From Phycisphaerae bacterium (GTDB taxonomy: Bacteria; Planctomycetota; Phycisphaerae; UBA1845; PWPN01): a DNA stretch of 64,000 bases. The position numbers and the translations under genes are program-made. The number at the start of each line of letters is the position of its first letter. Position 1 is the first letter of the stretch. The notes beneath the pieces were generated by a model. That model searched no databases and was not told the origin of the DNA. It was given only the letters and a program-made list of their open reading frames with translations. This document shows, piece after piece, positions 12,721 through 63,290 of the stretch. The stretch covers positions 1 through 64,000 of the forward strand of contig JAAXZI010000008.1 in assembly GCA_012719955.1 (NCBI GenBank), given 5' to 3'.

Positions 12721-12810
12721 GGGAAGGCGGAGCGAGGGAGGGACAAGGGAACTAGAAGACAAGGGGACAAGGAGACAAGGGAAGGGGGGACGAGAGGGAG
12801 AGATGGAAGT
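12721..12810. repeat. Degenerate 8-bp array (unit near GACAAGGG)
   Basis: Starts right after the TGA of the FemAB-like gene and fills almost the whole 102-bp gap to the next gene. The units read GACAAGGG, AACTAGAA, GACAAGGG, GACAAGGA, GACAAGGG and so on. It is purine-rich on the sense strand. Confidence 0.75.
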
Positions 12811-12822
12811 CTTGAGTGAAAT

Positions 12823-14121
12823 ATGAAGTTGTTGGTTCTCATCCATCGCCTGCCCTGCCCGCCGGATCGGGGCTCGAAGATCCGCGCCGCCGCCGAGTTG
12901 CGCTTCCTGGCGCGCCGCCACGAGGTCTGGTGCGCCGGTTTTCTGGACGCCGAGGGGCGCGCGGCCCGCCGGCAAGCTCGCGAGTCGCTGGCCGAATGGC
13001 GCAAGTTGTGCCGCGCGGTGGTCGCCGTGCCCCTGCGCCGACCCGTTGCCGCAGTCCGGGCGATGCACCGCCTGCTGACCGGCTCGACGGCCACGGAAGG
13101 CTATTTCGCCTCCCGGGCCCTCGAACACCAGGTCCTCCAGTGGGGCCGCAACATTGATTTCGATGCCGTCCTGGCGTTTTCGTCGAGCATGGCCCCGCTG
13201 GCCCTGCGCGTGCCTGCCGGACGCCACGTGCTTGACCTGGTGGACCTGGACAGTCGCAAGTGGATCGATTCGGCCTGCCGGGCCTCCTGGCCCATGAGCT
13301 GGGTATACCGCACGGAGGGCGAGCGCCTGGCCCGTCGGGAGCGCAAATGGATGCAGGCTTTTGACGCCAACATCTTCGTCAACGAGCGCGAAGCCGCGCT
13401 CCTCTCGGAGGATGATACGGCCGATCCGGATGGCCTCGGGCCGCGCGTGCACGTGATCGAAACCGGCGTTTGCCCGGAGGCCGATATACCGGCCCGCGAC
13501 GGCGAGCACCTCGGGCTCTGCGATGAGGGGCTGCCAGAGGAGGCGAACATCGGTTTCATCGGGGCCATGGACTATCCGCCGAACGTCGAAGGCGCCGTCT
13601 GGTTTGCGCGGTCCATTCTGCCGCTGATTCGCATTCACCGGCCGGATGCGGCGTTCTGGATCATCGGCCGGTCATCCACGCGGGCGGTGCGTGAACTCCA
13701 TGATGGCATGGGCATTCACGTGACCGGCGCGGTGCCTTCGGTGGGACCATACCTGGGCCGTCTGCGCGTCAGCGTGGCGCCGTTACGGCTGGCCCGGGGA
13801 GTGCAAACGAAAGTATTGGTGGCCATGGCCGCGGGGATTCCCTGCGTGGTCACGCCGTGTGTGGCCGAGGGCATCGGGGCCAGGGTCGGGCGCGAGATTC
13901 TGGTAGCCAGCTCGCCTGAGCGGTTTGCCCGTGCCGTGCGGATGTTGCTCTCAGACCGCGACCGGGCCGAGGCCATGGGCGAGGCCGGGCGACAGTTCGT
14001 ACACCGCCGCTACAACCCCGACGCCGGACTGGCCCGGCTGGAGCTGCTGCTCAAAGGATACGAGCCGGCCCCGACGGAACGGCCTGTCGAGCCCGTGGCG
14101 GATTTGTGCCGGGCTTGCTGA
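12823..14121 (+). CDS. Glycosyltransferase, XrtA/PEP-CTERM-associated type (GT4-like)
   Basis: 432 residues. The opening LLVLIHRLPCPPDRGSKIR and the central LVDLDSRKW are typical of the sugar transferases found next to exosortase A (TIGR03087-like). The C-terminal half has the GT-B donor site, IGFIGAMDYPPNVEGAVWFA followed by the VAPLRLARGVQTKVLVAMA stretch with the acidic switch replaced by the GVQTK type usual in this group. Cytoplasmic; it probably adds one sugar to the lipid-linked repeat unit. The start ATG 12823 follows a purine-rich array, and the stop runs straight into a second array. Donor and acceptor are not predictable. Confidence 0.82.
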   Translation: MKLLVLIHRLPCPPDRGSKIRAAAELRFLARRHEVWCAGFLDAEGRAARRQARESLAEWRKLCRAVVAVPLRRPVAAVRAMHRLLTGSTATEGYFASRALEHQVLQWGRNIDFDAVLAFSSSMAPLALRVPAGRHVLDLVDLDSRKWIDSACRASWPMSWVYRTEGERLARRERKWMQAFDANIFVNEREAALLSEDDTADPDGLGPRVHVIETGVCPEADIPARDGEHLGLCDEGLPEEANIGFIGAMDYPPNVEGAVWFARSILPLIRIHRPDAAFWIIGRSSTRAVRELHDGMGIHVTGAVPSVGPYLGRLRVSVAPLRLARGVQTKVLVAMAAGIPCVVTPCVAEGIGARVGREILVASSPERFARAVRMLLSDRDRAEAMGEAGRQFVHRRYNPDAGLARLELLLKGYEPAPTERPVEPVADLCRAC

Positions 14122-14262
14122 GTGGGAAGGTGGGAACGTGAGAAGGTGCGAAGGTGGGAAAGTGCGAGCGTGGGAAAGTATGAGCGGGGGAAAGTATGAG
14201 CAGGGGAAAGTATGAGCGTGGGAAGGTGAGAAGCCGAGAAGACGGCAGCGCACAGCGTGGGA
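14122..14262. repeat. Degenerate 8-bp array (units GTGGGAAR / GTATGAGC)
   Basis: Starts at the base after the stop codon of the upstream glycosyltransferase. Consecutive octamers include GTGGGAAG, GTGGGAAC, GTGAGAAG, GTGCGAAG, GTGGGAAA and GTATGAGC (three times, alternating). It decays towards 14262, and a diffuse version continues to about 14345. Confidence 0.85.
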
Positions 14263-29219: not shown

Positions 29220-29281
29220 CTCGTCATTCGGACTTCGTCATTGGTCATCCGGTGGTCATTGAGATTGGGGCATTGGTCATT
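29220..29281. repeat. Degenerate 7-bp array (unit GTCATTG)
   Basis: Units GTCATTC, GTCATTG, GTCATCC, GTCATTG, GGCATTG and GTCATTC, with spacing near 7. It directly abuts the stop codon of the BNR gene (minus strand) and lies between two co-directional genes. On the sense strand the unit is AATGACC, which carries ATG and TGA. Confidence 0.7.
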
Positions 29282-37535: not shown

Positions 37536-37596
37536 GGGAAGGTGAGAAACGTGGGAATGTGGGAACGTGAGAAGGTGAGAAAGTGAGAACGGGGCA
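37536..37596. repeat. Degenerate 8-bp array (unit GTGRGAAN)
   Basis: Units GTGAGAAAC (9 bp), GTGGGAAT, GTGGGAAC, GTGAGAAG, GTGAGAAA and GTGAGAAC. Lies just upstream of the glycosidase start, in the gap between two minus-strand genes. Confidence 0.8.
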
Positions 37597-37698: not shown

Positions 37699-37918
37699 GG
37701 GTACCACGGCCCCCGATCCGTACTGAACGCCCCGAACCTCCTGTGTGCCACGGCTCTCGAGCCGTGCTTGAACCACCCTACCGCTTGTGTACCACAGCCC
37801 TTGAACCGTGCTTGAACTACCCGAACGCCTGTATGCCACGGCTCTCGAGCCGTGTTTGAACCACCCGGACGCTTGTGTGCCACGGCTCTCGATCCGTGCC
37901 GGAACAGCTCCGGTATTC
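37699..37918. repeat. Five tandem 44-bp hairpin units (family D)
   Basis: Units start at about 37699, 37743, 37787, 37831 and 37875, exactly 44 bp apart. Most carry the palindrome CACGGCTCTCGAGCCGTG or a decayed form, followed by CTTGAACCACCC. Single or paired relatives are at 39011-39062 and 43391-43476. There is no gene in this gap (37493-37957). Confidence 0.85.
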
Positions 37919-41552: not shown

Positions 41553-43295
41553 ATGCCAAGGCACTGGATGGGTTCGGTTTTATCTCTCGCCCTGTTGATC
41601 GTCCCCGCGACGGCCGGGGCCCAGTCGGTCTCCGATCTGCTGGCCAAGGCCCTCTACCAGGAAAAGACCGCCGGCGATCTGGATGCCGCCATCAAGATCT
41701 ACCAGAGCATCATCGAGCAGGACAAGGTCAGCCGGCCGGCCGTCGCCCAGGCCCACTACCGCCTGGGCCTGTGCCTGGCCAGGAAGGGCGACGACGCCAA
41801 AGCGCGCGAAGCCTTTGAGACGGTCGTGAAGAATTATGCCGATCAGAAAACGCTCGCCGCCGAGGCACGCAAGGAGCTGGCCAAGCTGAAGGACACCGGC
41901 TCACCGCCGGTCGGCGTGACTGGCGCGGAGGCTCGACAGTTGCTCGACCCGCAGACCCGCCGGGACATCGCCGAGTTGGAGAAGGAGAGCGGCGCGTTCG
42001 GCGAGTTATTCCGATCGGGAAAGGAGGCCGAAAAGGTCTACATGGCTGCTCCGGAGGCAGAGAAGCATACCCTGTTTCAGCAGTGGATCAGAGAGCTCGA
42101 CTCAAGCGACGCCCCAACGCGGAGCCGGGCTATCATCGCCCTGGGTCTCATCCGCCATCGGCAAGCCGTGCGTCCTCTGATCGCCATCATCAAGGAGCCA
42201 ACCCAGAACAACCAGTTCAGGTGGCTGGCCGTGCGGGCCCTCGGCCAGATCGGCGATTCGGCGGCCGTGCCTGTGCTGATCGATCTGATCGACCACCACA
42301 ACTGGAACACCCAGGTCTGTGCGAAAGTGGCGCTGGCCGAGATCACCGGGGTGTACTTCGGTCAGGACAAGGACAAATGGCGAGCATGGTGGAAGGAGCG
42401 AAGCACTGCCGGCCGGTCCGGCGGCAACGGCCGGAACCCGTTGGCACCGGCCATTGTGCGCACCAGCCCAAAGGCCTTTGACGATGCCGTGCCGGCCACA
42501 CTCAGCGAGCTGACCGTCACCTTCGACCGCAGGATGATGGACAAGAGCTGGTCCTGGACCGGCGGGGGCGAGACCTTCCCCAAGAGGACGGGCGACATTC
42601 ACTATGACGCCTCTCTCACCACTTGCACCATGCCCGTGAAGCTCGAACCGGGAAAGGTCTACTGGGTGGGAATTAACTCTCCAAGTCACAAGAAATTCCA
42701 GACAGCGGCGCATGTACCCGCCCCGTGGTATGTGATCCTGTTCGCCACCGCCGACCAGGACGGCAAGCCCACACCCATCCCCGCCGAGATGCTGGAGAAA
42801 GCCAGGACCATCAACGCGGCCGCGGAGAAGGCCGCCAGCGACGCCCGGGCCGCGACGTCCAAGGCGCCGGTCGTCCTCCGCACCAGCCCCAGGGCCTTGG
42901 ATGGCGCCGTGCCGGCCACACTCAAGGAACTGACCGTCACCTTCGACCGCAAGATGATGGACAAGAGCTGGTCCTGGACCGGCGGCGGGGAGACGTATCC
43001 CAAGACCACCGGTCGACCGTCCTACGATGCGGCCAGGACCACGTGCAAGCTGCCGGTGGAGCTGGAGCCCGGGAAGGTCTACTGGGTAGGTGTCAACGCG
43101 GCCAGTCACCACAACTTCAAATCAGCGGAGGGCGTACCGGCGCCGTGGTACGTGATCCTGTTCGCGACAGCGGACAAGGACGGCAAGCCCACGCCCATCC
43201 CCGCGGATATGCTGGCGCGAGCCAGCGCCATCAACGCGGCGCACCAGTCCCCCGCGGGTGTGGCCAGCGCGCCGGCCAGTGAGACGTCGCGGTAG
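41553..43295 (+). CDS. Secreted TPR/HEAT protein with two SbsA-type Ig-like domains
   Basis: 580 residues. Signal peptide 1-22 (LSLALLIVPATAGAQ); TPR-like helices about 25-110 (AHYRLGLCLARKGDDAKAREAFETV); HEAT-like repeats about 165-265 (RAIIALGLIRHRQAVRPLIAIIK, AVRALGQIGDSAAVPVLIDLI); then two copies of a ~130-residue Ig-like domain with LTVTFDRKMMDKSWSWTGGG and the Ca-site-like end FATADKDGKPTPIP. AAGGAG lies 6 nt before ATG. Probably periplasmic or surface-located, as a scaffold or adhesion factor. No enzyme motif is seen. Confidence 0.75.
   Translation: MPRHWMGSVLSLALLIVPATAGAQSVSDLLAKALYQEKTAGDLDAAIKIYQSIIEQDKVSRPAVAQAHYRLGLCLARKGDDAKAREAFETVVKNYADQKTLAAEARKELAKLKDTGSPPVGVTGAEARQLLDPQTRRDIAELEKESGAFGELFRSGKEAEKVYMAAPEAEKHTLFQQWIRELDSSDAPTRSRAIIALGLIRHRQAVRPLIAIIKEPTQNNQFRWLAVRALGQIGDSAAVPVLIDLIDHHNWNTQVCAKVALAEITGVYFGQDKDKWRAWWKERSTAGRSGGNGRNPLAPAIVRTSPKAFDDAVPATLSELTVTFDRRMMDKSWSWTGGGETFPKRTGDIHYDASLTTCTMPVKLEPGKVYWVGINSPSHKKFQTAAHVPAPWYVILFATADQDGKPTPIPAEMLEKARTINAAAEKAASDARAATSKAPVVLRTSPRALDGAVPATLKELTVTFDRKMMDKSWSWTGGGETYPKTTGRPSYDAARTTCKLPVELEPGKVYWVGVNAASHHNFKSAEGVPAPWYVILFATADKDGKPTPIPADMLARASAINAAHQSPAGVASAPASETSR
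42452..43258 (+). repeat. Internal 420-bp tandem duplication
   Basis: The two Ig-like domain copies are offset by exactly 420 bp (140 codons). Long identical stretches, for example around 42526-42585 and 42946-43005, point to a fairly recent duplication or gene conversion. Confidence 0.85.
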
Positions 43296-43505: not shown

Positions 43506-45431
43506 ATGCGAGGCTTCAAGCGACACGACTCGCGACTCTGGCCGGTGCTGGCCATGCTGCTGGCGGCCGCCCTGCTCCCCACGGCCTGCGTGCTGTGGTT
43601 TATGGGCGAGGCCATGCGCAACGAGCGGCTGGCCAGCCGTCAGAAGCTTTTGGAGGCCTACCGGGCGCCGCTCGAACGGGTGCGCGCCCGGCTGGATGCC
43701 CACTGGGACCAGCGGGCCGGCGAGTTGCCTGCTTACGATCCCACCCGGGACCCGACGGCGGTCTTCGCCGGGCTGATTGCCTCCGGCCATGTCGATAGCG
43801 CGGTGCTCCTGGATCCCGCCGGCGCTGTCCGCTACCCGGAATGCATCGTCGCCATCGGGGAGGAGGCCGCCGCCGGCTTCGAGTGGCGGGCGGCTGAGGT
43901 CCTCGAATTTCAGGCCCGAGACTTCGTCGGAGCCGCCGAACTGTACCGGGAAGCCGCGAGGACCGCCCGTGACCCCGCACTGGCCGTCCGGGCGCGGATC
44001 GCTTGCGCCCGCTGCCTGGCCCGCTTGGGCAGCCTGTCCGAAGCACTTGATCTACTCCAGCAAGTGGTAACTGAACGGGCGTACCAGAATATACGGGACA
44101 CCAACGGCCGCCTGGTTGTCGCCGACGCCGCCCTGCTCCTGTTACAGTTTCTGGATCCCGCCGCGGACCGGTACCAGCAGGTTGCTCATATGCTCGCCTT
44201 GCTGGCCACTGATTATCGGCACGGCCTGCTGCCGGCCGCGCAGCGTCGCGCGATCATGGAACAACTGGCGCCGATCGTGGGAGCCGGCGCCTTCCCCACG
44301 CTTGCGGCCGAGCGCCTCGCGGCCCAATACGCGGAGACTGAGCCGGCTTCGCCACCGGTTCCCGGGCGGCTGACGCGCGCCCCGGTGGCCGGATGCTGGC
44401 AACTCGCCTCTTCAGACGGGACGCTCGTGGCCCTTTACCGCGAAAGCCGCATCACTTCCGAGCTGTCGGCCATCGTGCAATCCGAAGCCATCAGCGGGGC
44501 CACCGTTCGGCTGCTGCAGCCCGATCAGCGCGGCCCCGAGCCGTTCCTGGCTCTGGCCGCGTCGGAAGCCATGCCCGGCTGGCAACTGGCCCTGGATTTG
44601 ACCGGCCCGGATCCGTTCGCCGACCAGGCGCGCCGCCGCACGGCCCTGTACCTCTGGACGGGGCTGGCCGTGGCCCTGCTCACGGCGATGCTCACCATGC
44701 TGGTCGGGCGGCACGTCGGCCGTCAGGTGCGACTGACCCGGCTCAGGAACGACCTGATCGCCACCGTCAGCCACGAGCTGAAGACGCCGCTGGCTTCCAT
44801 CCGCGCGCTGGTGGACACGCTGCTGGACACGGATGCCCGCGACCCGCGTCAGACCCGCGAGTATCTCCAGCTCGTGGCCCGGGAGAACCTGCGCCTAAGC
44901 CGCCTGATCGACAATTTCCTGGCCTTCTCGCGCATGGAGCGCAACAAGCATACCTTCGCGTTCGCGGGCACGCCGCCGGCCGAAGTGGTGTCGGCCGCAG
45001 TCGATGCCGCCGGGAAACGTTTTCACTCTCCTGGGTGTCATCTGGAGGTAAAAGTGGCCCCCGGCCTCCCCCCGGTGGTGGCCGACCGCGACGCGTTGGT
45101 CACCGTTTTGCTCAACCTGCTGGACAACGCGTGGAAGTACACGGGCGACGACAAGCGCATCACCCTGAGCGCCTGTGCGGCAGACGGTCACGTGCGCTTC
45201 GAAGTGCGCGACAACGGCATCGGCCTGTCCCGGCGGGCCATGCGGCGCGTTTTTGATCGCTTCTATCAGGTGGATCAGAGCCTCTCGCGCAAGGCCGGCG
45301 GCTGCGGCCTGGGGCTGAGCATCGTTCAGTTTATCGTCGAGGCCCACGGCGGCGCCGTGAGCGTCGAAAGCCAGCCCGGAAAAGGCAGCGCGTTTACCGT
45401 GTCCCTGCTGGCGGAACCCGGGGAAAACTGA
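43506..45431 (+). CDS. Membrane sensor histidine kinase
   Basis: 641 residues. First span about 11-33; a ~345-residue external sensor region with TPR-like helices and Cache-like length; second span about 379-401. Then comes HisKA with His423 in ATVSHELKTPLASIRAL, and HATPase_c with the N box LLNLLDNAWKYTG, G1 DNGIGLS and G2 GGCGLGLSIVQFIVEAHGG. It autophosphorylates and should phosphorylate the OmpR-type regulator encoded 52 bp downstream. The signal is unknown; no sensory family was recognised for the periplasmic part. Its TGA stop lies in the first unit of a heptamer array. Confidence 0.93.
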   Translation: MRGFKRHDSRLWPVLAMLLAAALLPTACVLWFMGEAMRNERLASRQKLLEAYRAPLERVRARLDAHWDQRAGELPAYDPTRDPTAVFAGLIASGHVDSAVLLDPAGAVRYPECIVAIGEEAAAGFEWRAAEVLEFQARDFVGAAELYREAARTARDPALAVRARIACARCLARLGSLSEALDLLQQVVTERAYQNIRDTNGRLVVADAALLLLQFLDPAADRYQQVAHMLALLATDYRHGLLPAAQRRAIMEQLAPIVGAGAFPTLAAERLAAQYAETEPASPPVPGRLTRAPVAGCWQLASSDGTLVALYRESRITSELSAIVQSEAISGATVRLLQPDQRGPEPFLALAASEAMPGWQLALDLTGPDPFADQARRRTALYLWTGLAVALLTAMLTMLVGRHVGRQVRLTRLRNDLIATVSHELKTPLASIRALVDTLLDTDARDPRQTREYLQLVARENLRLSRLIDNFLAFSRMERNKHTFAFAGTPPAEVVSAAVDAAGKRFHSPGCHLEVKVAPGLPPVVADRDALVTVLLNLLDNAWKYTGDDKRITLSACAADGHVRFEVRDNGIGLSRRAMRRVFDRFYQVDQSLSRKAGGCGLGLSIVQFIVEAHGGAVSVESQPGKGSAFTVSLLAEPGEN

Positions 45432-45483
45432 GAACTGAAAACTGAGAACTGAAAACTGGAAACTGGGAACTGAGAACTCGGAA
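45429..45483 (+). repeat. Degenerate 7-bp array (unit AACTGAG)
   Basis: Eight units: AACTGAG, AACTGAA, AACTGAG, AACTGAA, AACTGGA, AACTGGG, AACTGAG, AACTCGG. It makes up the entire spacer between the kinase stop and the regulator GTG. Confidence 0.9.
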
Positions 45484-46173
45484 GTGGATACGGACACCAT
45501 CCTGATCATCGAGGACGACCCGACACTGCTTCGCGTGTTGAAAGACAACTTCGCGGCGGCCGACTATGCCGTGCATACGGCCACCGACGGCGAAGAGGGT
45601 CTGGCCGCCGCCCGAAGGCTCAAGCCCGCCCTGATCATCCTCGATATCATGCTGCCCAGGATCAACGGCTACGAAGTCTGCCGGCTGCTGCGCCGCGACA
45701 AGCTGGATGCGGTCATCATCATGCTCACCGCCAAGGGCCTGGAGACGGACGTCATCCTGGGCCTGAATCTCGGGGCCGATGATTACGTCACCAAGCCCTT
45801 CAGCATCCGCGAGTTGCTGGCCCGCGCCAACGCCTTTCTGCGCCGCCGCCGGGCCGGCGAGCAGGACGTTCGGCGGTTCGGCGAGTTCGAGCTGGATCTG
45901 CGCTCCCACCGGTTGCTGCGCGCCGGGCAGGAGGTGCCGCTCACGCCCAAGGAGTACGACCTGCTCGCCCTGTTTGTGCGCCGGGCCGGCCGGGCCCTGA
46001 CCCGCGATCAGATTCTCGAGGCCGTCTGGGGCGACGCCTTTCTGGTCACCGGCCGGAGCGTGGACCGCTGCATCAACTCCCTGCGCCGTAAGCTTGAGCC
46101 TGACCCGCACCACCCCGTTTACATCCAGACCGTCCGTGAAGTGGGCTACCGCTTCGACCTGCCCGACGCATGA
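45484..46173 (+). CDS. OmpR/PhoB-family response regulator
   Basis: 229 residues. Receiver domain with IIEDD (10-12), phosphoacceptor Asp54 in LIILDIMLPR and Lys104 in YVTKPFS. C-terminal winged helix with VPLTPKEYDLLALFVRRAGRALTRDQILEAVWG and GRSVDRCINSLRRKLE, ending in VREVGYRF. It is a DNA-binding regulator paired with the kinase upstream. GTG start; the ribosome binding site must lie within the heptamer array (GGGAACTGAG), which is unusual. Confidence 0.93.
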   Translation: MDTDTILIIEDDPTLLRVLKDNFAAADYAVHTATDGEEGLAAARRLKPALIILDIMLPRINGYEVCRLLRRDKLDAVIIMLTAKGLETDVILGLNLGADDYVTKPFSIRELLARANAFLRRRRAGEQDVRRFGEFELDLRSHRLLRAGQEVPLTPKEYDLLALFVRRAGRALTRDQILEAVWGDAFLVTGRSVDRCINSLRRKLEPDPHHPVYIQTVREVGYRFDLPDA

Positions 46174-48139: not shown

Positions 48140-48545
48140 ACCGCGGAGACGCGGAGACGCAGAGAATTATAGAAAAGCTTGGAACAACTCTCTCTGCGTC
48201 TCGGCGTCTCGATCCCGATCTCTGTAGAACAAGCTCGTCAGCGCTTGTTCTTGCAGTCAGTTTCTGTCGCCGAACGGAGGCCTTCGAGTCCGATGCCTCA
48301 TGCCCCCCCAACAACTGACCAAAGGACCACTGACCCAACAACTGACAACGAACAACTGACAACTGACATCCTGCCCAAACACCTGGAGTTGCAGGCGCAA
48401 CCCGCGCCAGCCCCCTGTTGCCTGAAGAATCCAAGAACACGAAATAATAAAACCGCCGAGGCGCCGAGACGCGGAGAAACAAAAACTCAAAAAGATCCCT
48501 CTGCGTCTCTGCGTCTCCGCGGTTCAATCCAAATCTCCGCGCCCT
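48128..48545. repeat. Repeat-filled convergent gap
   Basis: No gene in 48140-48569. The gap holds 8-bp arrays of GCGGAGAC type (48128-48160), their inverted forms (TCTGCGTC, 48190-48212 and 48500-48525), a CAACTGAC-type array (48308-48372) and GCGCCGAG-type units (48457-48478). The inverted arrays could pair over about 350 nt. Confidence 0.65.
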
Positions 48546-55625: not shown

Positions 55626-58600
55626 ATGGATCTCTGGAAGCCTTTACGGGTAGCGACTTTGAACGCCCTGGCCGCCATCGTCGTGGTCTGGGCCGCCTCA
55701 AGCATGGGGCTGGGGCCTGATGCACAGGCCGCGGAATACATCCTCGTTGACCTGGGTGACCTGGGTAATCCCTATGGCGAAGCGCGTGATGTGAACAACG
55801 CCGGCCAGGTCACCGGTTACTCCATGATGGTCTCCGGGGGATACCGATATCCCTTCATCTGGAGCCCTGACCAGGGCATGCGTGCCCTGACGGTCGCGCC
55901 CGACTTCCGGAGCGGCGAGGGCTACGGAATCAATGACAGCGGCCTGATTACCGGGTCCGGAACGCGCATCCTCAGCGGTACGTCCTTCGGCTTCTACTCG
56001 GCGGACGGCCTGAACTGTACGAGTCTGTGGATCTATGGCTCCAGCACGAATTACGCCCGGCGGGTCAACAACGAAGGCTGGGTCGTCGGCGAGGCTCGGA
56101 CGCTCAACAGCGGTTTCGTCAAACACGTCGATTCGCCTAACGGCCAGGCATATCAGGTCCTCATTCCCACGCTGGATCTCCAGAACCCCACCGGATACGG
56201 GGTGTCGTCCAACGGCTACGGCATTTCGAACGTGAAAAAATGGATCGACGGCACCGACGTCGTGCAAGTCACCGGCGAAGCCACGAGCACCACTGACTCG
56301 TCCGCCCGCGCGTTCCTCTGCACCATCCGCGTGAGCGATATGCAAATCCTGGAGATGCGCAACCTCGGCACGCTTGGCGGTACCGAAAGCCATGGCCGCG
56401 ACGTCAATGACAAGGGCGAGGTGGTTGGCGCGGCCCGCACCGCCGAGCCCGGCCCGCACAGCCATGCCTTCCTTTGGTCGGAGGCCGACGGTTCTCCCCA
56501 GATGATTGATCTGGGCTACATCACCGACCCCGTCTACAGCTCCAGGCCGGGCGCCTACCACCAAAGCGCCGCCTGGGACATCAACAACAACTCGGTGGTC
56601 GTCGGCCAGTCCCTCATCGCCTCCTCGCAAGGCGGCACGACGTATTACTACGCGTTCGTCTGGGACCAGCAGAACGGCATGCGCAATCTCAGTGACCTGA
56701 TCGATAAATCACCCACCAGCGCATGGGTCACCGGAAACTGGAGGACGTTTGAGTTCGCCTGGGCCATCAACGACAAGGGCTGGATTGTCGGTCGGGGCAC
56801 CAAGACGAATACCGTGTCCGCGCCGTTCCTGCTCCTGCCCGATAAGGACGGCGACGGCACCGCCGATGATTTCGACAACTGCCCCAACGTGGCCAACCCC
56901 GATCAGGCCGACAGCGATGGTGACGGCGTCGGCGACGCCTGCGACAACTGCGTGGACCGGGCCAACCCCGATCAGCTCGAAACCGACGGCGATGGACTGG
57001 GCGACGCCTGCGATAACTGCCCGGCCGTCAACAATCCCGAGCAGGAGGATAGCGATCTGGACGGTTGGGGCGACGTGTGCGACAACTGCCCGACCATCGC
57101 CAACAGCGATCAGAACGACGTTGATGGCGACTTCGTCGGCGATCTCTGCGACGGCTGCCCGAACGACCCGGACAAGATTGAGCCCGGCGCCTGCGGTTGC
57201 GGCGTGGCCGATACGGACTCCGACTCCGACGGTACGCCGGATTGCATCGATGGCTGCCCCAATGATCCCGCCAAGACCGAGCCCGGCGCCTGCGGCTGCG
57301 GCGTGGCGGATGAGGATGCCGACGGCGACGGCATGCCGGATTGCATCGACGGCTGCCCCGCTGACCCGGCCAAGATCGAGCCGGGCATCTGCGGCTGCGG
57401 TGTGGCCGATACCGATTCCGACGCCGACGGCACGCCGGATTGCATCGACGGCTGCCCCAATGATCCCGCCAAGACCCAACCCGGTGTTTGCGGCTGCGGC
57501 GTAGCCGACACCGATTCCGACGCCGACGGCACGCCTGACTGCAACGACGCCTGCCCGGCCGACCCGGCCAAGACCGATCCGGGCATCTGCGGTTGCGGTG
57601 TGGCCGATACCGACAGTGACGAGGATGGCACGCCCAACTGCTTCGACCTCTGCCCGAACGACCCGGCCAAGACCGAGCCGGGCGTCTGCGGCTGCGGCGT
57701 GGCGGATGAGGATGCCGATGGCGACGGCACGTTTGACTGCAACGACGCCTGCCCCGAGGACCCCGCCAAGACTGAGCCGGGTCTGTGCGGCTGCGGTGTG
57801 GCCGATACCGACAGTGACGAGGATGGCGTGCCCAACTGCGCCGATAACTGTCCGAACGATGCGGGCAAGATCGAGCCGGGCGTGTGTGGTTGCGGCGTGG
57901 CCGACATCGACAGCGATGGCGACGGCACGTTTGACTGCAACGACGCCTGCCCCGAGGACCCGGCCAAGACCGCTCCGGGCCTGTGTGGCTGCGGCGTAGC
58001 CGACATCGACAGCGATGCCGATGGCGTCGCCGACTGCCTCGACGCCTGCCCGAATGACCCGGCCAAGACCGCTCCGGGCCTCTGCGGCTGCGGCGTAGCC
58101 GACGTGGACAGCGATGCCGACGGCGTCGCCGACTGCAACGACGGCTGCCCGAATGACGCCGGCAAGGTCGATCCCGGCATGTGCGGCTGCGGCGTTCCGG
58201 AGACGGACAGCGATGGCGACGGCGTACCCAACTGCGTGGATAACTGTCCCAACGTTCCCAACCCGGATCAGGCCGACTCCGACGGCGATGGCATCGGGAA
58301 CGCCTGCGACACCAACCTGTTAATCGCCGTGGAGGACGCCTTCATTCGCCGTGTTCCGCAGGGTGACCTCAACGAAGGGGCCAACCCCCGGCTGCGCGTG
58401 GCCAAGTCCGGCCAGAACCGCGCGCTGGTCCGCTTCGATCTGAGCGGCGTCAACACCCAGGCGCTCAAGAAGGCCACGCTGGTGCTCACCATCGCCGAGA
58501 AGCCGGTCGGCTGGGGCAACAAGGACGAGAAGGTCGTGCCCTACCGCCTCCTCGTGCCCTGGACCGAGGGCAACGGCTGGAACCTGAATGGTAAGATCAC

Positions 58601-58913
58601 CGGCACCGGCCCCGGCGTGACCTGGGAGTGCCCGACCGACGCGGACATCAGCAACAAGAAGGCTGATTGCTCGACCTCCTGGTCGGGCGGCACGTTTGCT
58701 CCCGCCACCGCCGCGGGCGTTGTCCATCACAAGGACATGCCGGTGGAGGTCAAGTGGGACGTCACGGCCGACGTGAAGGCGGGCGCTCCGTTCGGCTGGC
58801 TCATTAAGCGCGAGGAGGAGGACCGCGGCGGCACCGTGGACTACTACTCCCGCGAAGGAGCCGCCGCCGCCGGCAACCCGACGCTGGCCCCGCGCCTGAT
58901 CCTGGAGTACTGA
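55626..58913 (+). CDS. Giant secreted HAF / thrombospondin type-3 / DNRLRE protein
   Basis: 1095 residues. Signal peptide about 1-36 (LAAIVVVWAASSMGLGPDAQA). Residues ~37-400 carry HAF-type repeats: YILVDLGDLGNPYGEARDVNNAGQVTGYS, LGTLGGTESHGRDVNDKGEVVG, AWAINDKGWIVGRG. Residues ~410-895 are calcium-binding TSP3 repeats: first the classic DxDGDGxGDxCDNCP form, then eleven units of exactly 33 residues built on CGCGVADTDSDxDGxxDC. Residues ~900-1095 are a DNRLRE/CBM96-like beta domain (AVEDAFIRR ... APRLILEY). No PEP-CTERM or other sorting tail. AGGAGG lies 9 nt before ATG. It is probably surface-exposed and involved in adhesion or matrix binding (inference). Confidence 0.87.
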   Translation: MDLWKPLRVATLNALAAIVVVWAASSMGLGPDAQAAEYILVDLGDLGNPYGEARDVNNAGQVTGYSMMVSGGYRYPFIWSPDQGMRALTVAPDFRSGEGYGINDSGLITGSGTRILSGTSFGFYSADGLNCTSLWIYGSSTNYARRVNNEGWVVGEARTLNSGFVKHVDSPNGQAYQVLIPTLDLQNPTGYGVSSNGYGISNVKKWIDGTDVVQVTGEATSTTDSSARAFLCTIRVSDMQILEMRNLGTLGGTESHGRDVNDKGEVVGAARTAEPGPHSHAFLWSEADGSPQMIDLGYITDPVYSSRPGAYHQSAAWDINNNSVVVGQSLIASSQGGTTYYYAFVWDQQNGMRNLSDLIDKSPTSAWVTGNWRTFEFAWAINDKGWIVGRGTKTNTVSAPFLLLPDKDGDGTADDFDNCPNVANPDQADSDGDGVGDACDNCVDRANPDQLETDGDGLGDACDNCPAVNNPEQEDSDLDGWGDVCDNCPTIANSDQNDVDGDFVGDLCDGCPNDPDKIEPGACGCGVADTDSDSDGTPDCIDGCPNDPAKTEPGACGCGVADEDADGDGMPDCIDGCPADPAKIEPGICGCGVADTDSDADGTPDCIDGCPNDPAKTQPGVCGCGVADTDSDADGTPDCNDACPADPAKTDPGICGCGVADTDSDEDGTPNCFDLCPNDPAKTEPGVCGCGVADEDADGDGTFDCNDACPEDPAKTEPGLCGCGVADTDSDEDGVPNCADNCPNDAGKIEPGVCGCGVADIDSDGDGTFDCNDACPEDPAKTAPGLCGCGVADIDSDADGVADCLDACPNDPAKTAPGLCGCGVADVDSDADGVADCNDGCPNDAGKVDPGMCGCGVPETDSDGDGVPNCVDNCPNVPNPDQADSDGDGIGNACDTNLLIAVEDAFIRRVPQGDLNEGANPRLRVAKSGQNRALVRFDLSGVNTQALKKATLVLTIAEKPVGWGNKDEKVVPYRLLVPWTEGNGWNLNGKITGTGPGVTWECPTDADISNKKADCSTSWSGGTFAPATAAGVVHHKDMPVEVKWDVTADVKAGAPFGWLIKREEEDRGGTVDYYSREGAAAAGNPTLAPRLILEY
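57192..58280 (+). repeat. Eleven 99-bp tandem units (TSP3-like)
   Basis: CGCGV-encoding points recur every 99 bp from 57192 to 58182 without a single indel (10 intervals, 990 bp). Units encode CGCGVADxDSDxDGTPDCxD-CP-DPAKTEPG. Confidence 0.9.
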
Positions 58914-59247: not shown

Positions 59248-59292
59248 ATGACCTTCCCACGTTCTCACTTTTCCACCTGCTCACTTTTCCAC
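59248..59292. repeat. Degenerate array related to GTGRGAAN octamers
   Basis: Reads CTTCCCACGTTCTCACTTTT then CCACCTGCTCACTTTTCCACCC, the complement of GTGGAAAA/GTGAGAAC-type units seen at 14122 and 37536. Confidence 0.65.
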
Positions 59293-59338
59293 CCCCACCG
59301 GCGAGACACCGGTGCCACATTGCATTTGAGCCGTGCAA

Positions 59339-59401: not shown

Positions 59402-59478
59402 AGCGTTCCCCTACCTCAACCCCGCGCCCTGAACCTAATCTCCTGAACCCTGAACCCCGAACCTTGAACCCTCAGATT
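59402..59478. repeat. Degenerate 7-bp array (unit CTGAACC)
   Basis: Units CTGAACC, TAATCTC, CTGAACC, CTGAACC, CCGAACC, TTGAACC. It lies just beyond the 3' end of the DUF3754-like gene. Confidence 0.75.
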
Positions 59479-62458: not shown

Positions 62459-62567
62459 GTAGCGCTATTCAGCGGTCAGCACTCAGCGTTCAACTTTCAG
62501 CAGTCAGCTTTCAGCTCTCAGCGGTCAGCAATCGCAACTCAGTACTCAGTACTCAGCACTCAGTACT
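62459..62567. repeat. Degenerate 7-bp array (unit CAGTACT / CAGCNNT)
   Basis: Thirteen or more units: CAGCACT, CAGCGTT, CAACTTT, CAGCAGT, CAGCTTT, CAGCTCT, CAGCGGT, CAGCAAT, CGCAACT, CAGTACT, CAGTACT, CAGCACT, CAGTACT. It starts at the RIC stop codon and ends 10 bp before the hemerythrin ATG (both genes on the minus strand). Confidence 0.92.
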
Positions 62568-63290
62568 TTATGCCTGCCGTGCCAACCGCGCTTCCAACGC
62601 ACTGGCCCGCGGGAAAAGGATATTATTCTCCTTGTGAATGTGCTGGTGCATATCCTTCTCCAGCACGGCCAGGCCATCCAGCATCGCCCGGTAGCTGTTG
62701 CACGCCTCGGGCGTGGGCGTGTAGTCGCGGGTGAGCCCGCGCATCCGGGCCAGCGCCGTCCCCGCGCTGTCGTGCTCAAACTCCATCACCCGGATGGGGT
62801 TGTTCACGCTGCCGCAGTGGAACCTGGGGAGCGAACTGGCATATTCGAGCTGACGAATGATAGGGAAGAGCACCTGCTCTTCCTTGGCCATGTGCGATTC
62901 GAGCTCCATGCAGAAATCGCGGAATACGCCGGCCAGCGTCTGCAAATCCGGCTCGCGCTCGCCGTGCACGGAAGCCACCTTGGCGATCAAGGCGCTGAGC
63001 CGAGGCAGCTCCTCGCGCAGGAAGGCGTGATGCGTGGCCTCGATGTGGTCGCACAGCTCGTCCAGCGCGGCTTCGGCCCAGTTCCGCTCCTCGCCGTTGC
63101 CCGCGTTCTCGTCCGCGGCCACGGCGTCGAGCACGGCCCGGGCCTCGAGGCCCCGTTCCGCGCAAGCCTCGGCCAGGGGCCTGCGGCCGCCACAACAGTA
63201 ATCGATGCCCAGCCGTTCGAGGGTTCGCGCCGCCCGCGGCCGCTCGGCCACCAGTTGCCCCACTGTCACGTTTACATCCAGAGTGCTCAT
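62568..63290 (-). CDS. ytfE: Iron-sulfur cluster repair di-iron protein (RIC/YtfE/ScdA)
   Basis: 240 residues. N-terminal ScdA_N domain with GQLVAERPRAARTLERLGIDYCCGGRRPLAEAC (the CC pair near residue 32), then a hemerythrin-like di-iron domain with HIEATHHAFLREELP, LESHMAKEEQVLFPI, EFEHDSAGTAL and HQHIHKENNILFPR. RIC proteins repair Fe-S clusters damaged by nitric oxide or oxidants. CAGGAGA lies about 7 nt before ATG 63290. It sits directly downstream of the nitric oxide reductase gene on the same strand. Confidence 0.95.
   Translation of the reverse strand: MSTLDVNVTVGQLVAERPRAARTLERLGIDYCCGGRRPLAEACAERGLEARAVLDAVAADENAGNGEERNWAEAALDELCDHIEATHHAFLREELPRLSALIAKVASVHGEREPDLQTLAGVFRDFCMELESHMAKEEQVLFPIIRQLEYASSLPRFHCGSVNNPIRVMEFEHDSAGTALARMRGLTRDYTPTPEACNSYRAMLDGLAVLEKDMHQHIHKENNILFPRASALEARLARQA

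Follow-up and report, generated by a model that had tools for sequence, protein, structure and literature searches.

Between a histidine kinase gene and a response regulator gene in a planctomycete genome, a 52-bp spacer is filled by a tandem array of degenerate AACTGAR heptamers, and the TGA stop codon of the kinase (45429-45431) lies inside the first unit. The question raised by this locus is what kind of sequence such an array is and how it came to lie there. The locus belongs to a window of 64,000 nucleotides, the whole stretch of DNA first described, from contig 66 of a 5.29-Mb assembly in 262 contigs, whose 16S gene contains the exact EUB338-II site and thereby assigns it to the Planctomycetota. 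The locus comprises the following features.

43506-45431, plus strand: histidine kinase gene (HisKA and HATPase_c), upstream neighbour
45426-45478, plus strand: AACTGAR heptamer array of 7.6 units, with the kinase stop in the first unit and the spacer filled
45484-46173, plus strand: response regulator gene (Response_reg and Trans_reg_C), downstream neighbour

A preliminary description of this DNA had stated that the stop lies in the first unit and that the array is the whole spacer, and this was borne out. The array is solo, with no partner arm, and its best match is an arm of an S23 element of the same genome, at locus L036 (27 against 19 for arms from other genomes). On this resemblance it would be a solo arm of such an element. 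More generally, we consider it likely that the arrays in the window are solo, decayed or ORF-less ends of S23 elements, spread or left behind by these elements as REP sequences are by RAYTs. S23-type elements have so far been known mainly as insertions in ribosomal RNA genes. The S23 protein is a pentameric four-helix bundle; to our knowledge, it has no known function and no known transposase or nuclease activity.

Additional arrays are present in the window.

12742-12783, plus strand: GACAAGGR octamer array between co-directional genes, 21 nt past the stop
14122-14224, plus strand: GTGRGAAR octamer array starting at the first base after the stop of gene 12823-14121 (0 nt)
37538-37589, no strand assigned: GTGRGAAR octamer array between two minus-strand genes, closer to the downstream start
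48142-48521, no strand assigned: two inverted pairs of octamers (GACGCGGA type) flanking a heptamer run, ORF-less, predicted to form hairpins
59257-59293, no strand assigned: GTGRGAAR-type array in inverse orientation (CACTTTTCCAC), period 8/16, in a convergent gap
62469-62529, minus strand: GCTGANN heptamer array (TCAGCNN on the plus strand) between two hemerythrin-domain genes
62537-62567, minus strand: GTRCTGA heptamer array adjoining the stop of minus-strand gene 62568-63290 (0 nt)
Weaker arrays: 48142-48521 (period 8), 48307-48368 (period 7) and 59442-59472 (period 7)

An array listed earlier at 29220 proved to be just a degenerate GTCATTN run that falls under the array threshold. The accompanying statement that arrays start near the upstream stop at five of six sites holds for those at 14122, 45426 and 62567, is borderline at 12742 and fails at 37538, which lies about 368 nt from the upstream stop; approximately three to four of the six sites therefore conform. 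The ORF-less structure at 48142-48521 occupies a convergent gap, and its outer arms are separated by 333 bp, nearly the length of an S23 element; no S23 frame was found inside it. Other repeat classes also occur in the window. A 44-bp palindrome-bearing repeat (CCACGGCTCTCGAGCCGTG) is present in 4.5 copies at 37701-37899, and gene 55626-58913 includes, at 57149-58223, a 99-bp coding unit repeated about 11 times, which has DTDxDADG-like motifs and resembles thrombospondin type-3 repeats. A 420-bp tandem duplication (79% identical) at 42459-43240 covers the Ig-like part at the end of gene 41553-43295.

Genome-wide statistics confirm that degenerate 7- and 8-bp arrays are real. The analysis covered 1.23 Mb, in which our own simple coding-model caller placed 877 genes, and about 0.5 Mb (504 kb) of this was chosen regardless of arrays. 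Within the unselected 504 kb, spacers contained 33 period-7 and 16 period-8 arrays, compared with 0 and 0.2, respectively, at the same threshold after order-3 Markov resampling. The same resampling test placed periods 4, 5, 10, 11 and 13 close to or at background, and intergenic enrichment was restricted to periods 7, 8 and, weakly, 9. Arrays were rare inside genes and in divergent gaps, where 5/120 gaps carried one, against 111/676 of the others (p=0.0002). The proposed preference for co-directional gaps therefore survives only in part, since co-directional (93/553) and convergent gaps (18/123) did not differ (p=0.59); "co-directional" was replaced as the key property by "downstream of a stop, rarely divergent". 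Proximity to the upstream stop was upheld when compared with random placement in the same gaps, as 33 of 118 arrays lay within 10 nt of it, whereas 22 were expected (p=0.002). No enrichment was found near the downstream start (16 of the 118 arrays against 22 expected). Period-7 autocorrelation reached its maximum in the first 20 nt past stop codons (0.32 against a baseline of 0.26) and decayed over about 150 nt. Overlap with the stop itself is to be expected in any case, since an array with TGA in its unit will provide the stop codon of any gene into which it extends.

Proximity to stops could suggest a translational role, in which a TGA within a 7- or 8-bp unit provides stops in all frames and thereby shields the downstream gene or sets re-initiation. 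In favour of such a role, AACTGA is found mostly in sense orientation (30 sense against 9 antisense), and in 64/118 arrays each of the three sense frames contains a stop. However, of the 118 arrays in co-directional gaps, 42 are stop-free in every sense frame, stop-free families (GACAAGGR, AACTGGN and GGGTTCA read in sense) occupy the same places, and arrays in the opposite orientation also adjoin stops. Furthermore, the kinase-regulator junction is array-free in relatives, where it measures about 44 bp (G004) or 12 bp (G009) or is a 4-bp overlap (G011), and a role in translation leaves the inverted arrays around S23 genes, described below, unexplained. The stop-free arrays led us to reject this role as a general function, and the earlier suggestion that arrays catch read-through ribosomes or set re-initiation now appears highly improbable. 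Alternatively, the arrays could bind a regulator or contribute to a ribosome binding site, a role that MacGregor proposed for TAACTGA. The excess of G over C on the sense strand of 82/118 arrays and the position of the Beggiatoaceae repeats just upstream of starts (PMC4679880) are compatible with this proposal. Nevertheless, the arrays here favour stops rather than starts, and unit families differ within one genome; we accordingly give it very little credence.

The view that the unit differs at each site, so that the arrays would not form repeat families, had to be abandoned, as about ten families recur genome-wide. These include the heptamers AACTGAR, AAGTGAG, GTRCTGA, GCTGANN, CCCTGAA, AACTGGN, GGACAAA and GAGGGRC, the octamers GTGRGAAR and GACAAGGR, and the nonamer GATCSGACC. 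AACTGAR alone has 382 overlapping matches genome-wide (at most 3 mismatches), compared with 0 for the reversed pattern. Among planctomycetes, AACTGAN triplets are patchy (18/392 genomes); their seventh base differs by lineage and includes AACTGAT, which is the TAACTGA of Beggiatoaceae. Many array spacers also contain inverted pairs of the same units with no ORF between them; in most of these pairs, the arms measure 20-42 bp and the loop 13-64 bp. Arrays of the nonamer, which has a GATC core, were observed at L048, L049, L055, L065, L071 and L075, and no S23 arm with this unit was seen. Spacers at L057 (892-1400) and L065 (3077-3544) bear palindromic GCCCACCTTCTCCGAAGGTGGG-type repeats, another dispersed class of the same genome. 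Reversed control patterns matched repeatedly in two single genomes (13 times in G051 and 19 times in G031), a hint of other period-7 or period-8 unit families there.

The association between the arrays and S23 genes is seen most directly in two long spacers (L036 and L066), in each of which a short ORF is enclosed by two copies of one array that face opposite ways. This ORF belongs to the S23 or four-helix-bundle family (PF05635/TIGR02436), that is, the ORF of 23S rRNA intervening sequences. Four copies tested matched TIGR02436 with E values of 1e-27 to 1e-35, and the nearest solved structure is 2gsc from Xanthomonas (E 1e-17). PF05635 was found at 12 places in the genome, none of them inside the window. 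All six copies read of the 12 are flanked by inverted arrays, and each pair shares its unit: AACTGAR/T at L036, AAGTGAG/AACTGAG at L066 and L071, GTRCTGA at L072, GTGRGAAR at L080 and GCTGANN at L203. A wider comparison covered 35 PF05635 loci from this genome and its relatives, the relatives contributing their best-scoring loci per genome, and shared ancestry makes the loci not fully independent; flanking inverted repeats scoring at least 14 were present at 28/35 of them against 2/286 size-matched genes, and those scoring at least 17 at 23/35 against 0/286. Among PLSDB plasmids, inverted 7- or 8-bp arrays flank 11/18 S23 genes, from Pseudanabaena, Nostoc, Calothrix, Geminocystis, Anabaena, Picosynechococcus, Stanieria, Azospirillum and Gemmatirosa, and most of the others have an array on one side. 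On IMG/VR viral contigs, flanking inverted repeats were found at 17/21 non-redundant S23 loci. Clear arms are thus absent at 7/35, 7/18 and 4/21 loci in the three sets, respectively. That the arms are exact inverted copies was considered and rejected, as a single clearly best register was found in just 13/27 elements.

The S23 copies read with gene context lie in protein-gene spacers or at a contig end, and none of the copies read here is located in a 23S rRNA gene. Because they lie outside 23S rRNA genes, they are not rRNA intervening sequences, though their anatomy is the same. The two arms pair in predicted RNA folds, and no transposase was seen in the element. S23 genes often lie within operons; on cyanobacterial plasmids (L228, L232 and L238), they were observed between cas6 and cas4 twice and between cas10 and cmr3 once.

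Solo arrays are tied to the S23 elements of their own genome by the identity of their units. When 133 other arrays, a sample largely picked by AACTGAR matches, were compared with 12 S23 arms of this genome and with 43 foreign arms, 93 fitted their own-genome arms best, compared with 29 expected. The window arrays were not picked in this way, and 6/7 strong arrays fit own-genome arms best. Besides the array at 45426, those at 14122 (30 against 11 for the arms of other genomes), 37538 (24 against 11) and 59257 (17 against 8) match the arms of L080, while those at 62469 (28 against 19) and 62537 (31 against 14) match the arms of L203 and L072, respectively. The exception is the GACAAGGR array at 12742, which matched none of the arms of the S23 copies read here (6/12). 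Across 41 genomes, the density of S23 genes per Mb correlates with that of arrays per Mb (rho 0.58, within-family permutation p=0.0008; rho 0.54 without this genome), whereas the reversed-pattern control correlates weakly with S23 density (rho 0.33). Octamer AGGGAY arrays occur in 4/4 genomes with that unit in their S23 arms and in 8/37 others. Against a derivation from S23 elements, arrays are far more numerous than the 12 S23 genes of this genome, one relative (G011) has arrays with no S23 gene detected, and no solo array was observed to have moved.

It could be argued that the arrays came first and that S23 genes merely insert into them, since arrays without S23 genes exist in the same kind of position. 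Empty and filled sites on Nostoc plasmids bear on this alternative. At the first site, the empty form (L249-L251) reads TTCTAGGTTATGC, that is, a TAG stop, a 3-bp spacer and the next ATG, and is array-free. The filled form (L242) reads GGTTCTA-AATCAGGAGTCAGAAGTCAG...S23...GACTTCTGGATTCTAG-TTATGC, and L253 and L254 are similar. The change is from TTCTAG-GTT-ATG to TTCTA-AATCAGGAGTCAG..S23..GACTTCTGGATTCTAG-TT-ATG, so that the element sits at the stop codon and the stop becomes TAA. A duplication of TTCTA is possible but not certain, as it may instead be a degenerate last unit. At the second site, between TraM and a hypothetical gene, the empty form (L247 and L248) is array-free and measures 52 bp; L234 and L235 carry an S23 element with inverted AGGGAAC arms. 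L246 has inverted arrays without an S23 ORF and shares the left junction of the filled copies, so ORF-less forms exist. Because the empty sites are array-free and the filled copies have both arms, the arrays arrive with the element. The three empty sites with the 3-bp array-free junction, together with units that are inverted and paired around the gene, in one clearly best register in the 13 elements noted above, make prior arrays a very doubtful explanation. No usable empty-site pair was found by synteny for planctomycete S23 loci among the sequences compared. In L253 (640-1190), the S23 gene of a Nostoc plasmid is interrupted by additional sequence that contains further heptamer runs and may represent a nested insertion.

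Polymerase slippage is a more serious alternative. Arrays could arise anywhere by slippage and survive only where no reading frame or promoter is hurt; according to a proposal attributed to Mrazek, slippage at periods 7 and 8 is reportedly favoured by a 7-nt polymerase contact. The restriction of enrichment to periods 7, 8 and 9 and the rarity of arrays in genes and divergent gaps agree with this explanation, as does the flhB-flhA spacer, where several genera have different units. This genome has a GTRCTGA/AACTGAG array there, G001, G002 and G009 have different 7-bp arrays (short in G009), G004 has a GACGCGGM octamer pair, and no array was found in G003, G005, G006, G007, G008, G010 or G011. 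Comparison of the kinase-regulator and flhB-flhA spacers, a check of orthologous gaps proposed in the preliminary description, thus indicates that arrays come and go and that units vary between genera. Array-free flhB genes already end in AACTGA, so local seeding is possible at this site, but such a seed cannot explain recurrence at many spacers. The same units recur at many unlinked spacers of one genome, S23 genes are bordered by inverted pairs, genomes denser in S23 genes are denser in arrays, and the Nostoc empty sites contain no seed array. Purely local slippage is therefore insufficient, given the recurring units and the array-free empty sites, and we regard slippage as an unlikely explanation overall.

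The proposed derivation of the arrays from S23 elements can be set out as the following model. The element consists of an array, an S23 gene (PF05635, TIGR02436) and the same array inverted, occupying spacers typically right after a stop codon and usually in operon direction. In the transcript, the two arms are predicted to form a long stem that encloses the S23 gene; by analogy with rRNA intervening sequences, RNase III could cut this stem and excise the S23 RNA from the operon mRNA. S23 elements may have spread the solo and ORF-less arrays or left them behind, a relation like that of RAYT transposases to REP sequences. Once present, arrays would probably lengthen and shorten by slippage, and their persistence just past stops would reflect the lack of damage to reading frames and promoters at that position. 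The association with S23 genes, the inverted arms, the unit matches, the empty and filled sites and the density correlation are observed; movement in trans, its enzymology and RNA excision are the parts of this model that we infer.

Several known systems resemble parts of this arrangement. Cyanobacterial STRR heptanucleotides are fingerprinting repeats of unknown origin. Like the arrays here, they are tandem 7-bp units present in many copies in spacers, and the likeness drawn earlier is supported by the heptamer arrays that flank S23 genes on cyanobacterial plasmids, including those of Nostocales. As the host is a planctomycete, the relation is one of likeness rather than membership. In Coxiella burnetii, the 5' end of the 23S rRNA intervening sequence carries GACAGAT heptamers in tandem, and RNase III cleaves where the first of them begins (PMC4990558). 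Such intervening sequences and the present elements share a PF05635/TIGR02436 ORF of about 120 aa, a size of about 430-490 bp and complementary ends that form a stem around the ORF; the present elements differ in lying in mRNA spacers after stops, in having tandem 7- or 8-mer arrays as stems and in having solo or ORF-less derivatives.

Rehm et al. (2015) described the Xanthomonas and Nostoc heptamers GGGAATC and GGGGAYT near upstream stops and rare between divergent genes (PMC4692102), and read them as G-quadruplex repeats with generally no mobile-element association. The arrays here are likewise intergenic, near or overlapping the upstream stop, rare in divergent gaps and G-rich on the sense strand near stops, but their units are different, most lack quadruplex G-runs, and they are linked to S23. 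TAACTGA repeats of Beggiatoaceae, Cyanobacteria and Bacteroidetes lie next to starts and were read as translational sites, and the main text of that paper does not mention S23 (PMC4679880). AACTGAR is nearly the same unit as TAACTGA (AACTGAT), also intergenic and mostly in sense orientation, whereas the arrays here favour stops rather than the starts that characterise TAACTGA repeats. RAYTs belong to the tyrosine transposases of the IS200/IS605 type, and REPs form imperfect palindromes (PMC2817692, PMC3116915). As in REP/RAYT and REPIN systems, a small gene lies between two inverted repeats, with many solo or inverted-pair copies between genes; the flanked gene here is PF05635/TIGR02436 instead of a Y1 transposase, and the repeats are tandem arrays. 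The S23 system is thus not a member of this class but its closest working analogy, in that it would work in a similar way. The accessory protein Avd of diversity-generating retroelements (DGR) has weak S23 similarity (NF033474, E 5e-5 to 3e-4), below the cut-off. MITE-like traits are the ORF-less inverted pairs in array spacers and the ORF-less L246 at an S23 site; target duplications were not clear.

S23 elements were found in planctomycetes, cyanobacteria, Alphaproteobacteria, Gemmatimonadota and phage-like contigs. With somewhat less assurance than for the window arrays, we lean towards the view that they constitute an unrecognised, widespread type of mobile element with tandem 7- or 8-mer inverted ends. 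Such elements would insert at operon stop codons and seed orphan heptamers (STRRs, TAACTGA and GGGAATC), and the 23S intervening sequence would be a special case. Heptamer arrays near stops and their rarity between divergent genes were already known. The link to S23 appears to be new: our literature search, with subscription journals and preprints outside its scope, turned up no publication that connects S23 genes to dispersed heptamer arrays.

Intergenic heptamer repeats, known for decades from cyanobacteria and more recently from Xanthomonas and Beggiatoaceae, have lacked an explanation of their origin, as the S23 protein has lacked a known function; the tie between them offers a testable explanation of both. 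It also cautions against taking such arrays for regulatory sites or stop traps. The empty and filled sites occur in cultivable Nostoc strains, which makes the idea testable at the bench. Furthermore, these findings suggest that rRNA intervening sequences may belong to a larger family of elements in operon spacers.
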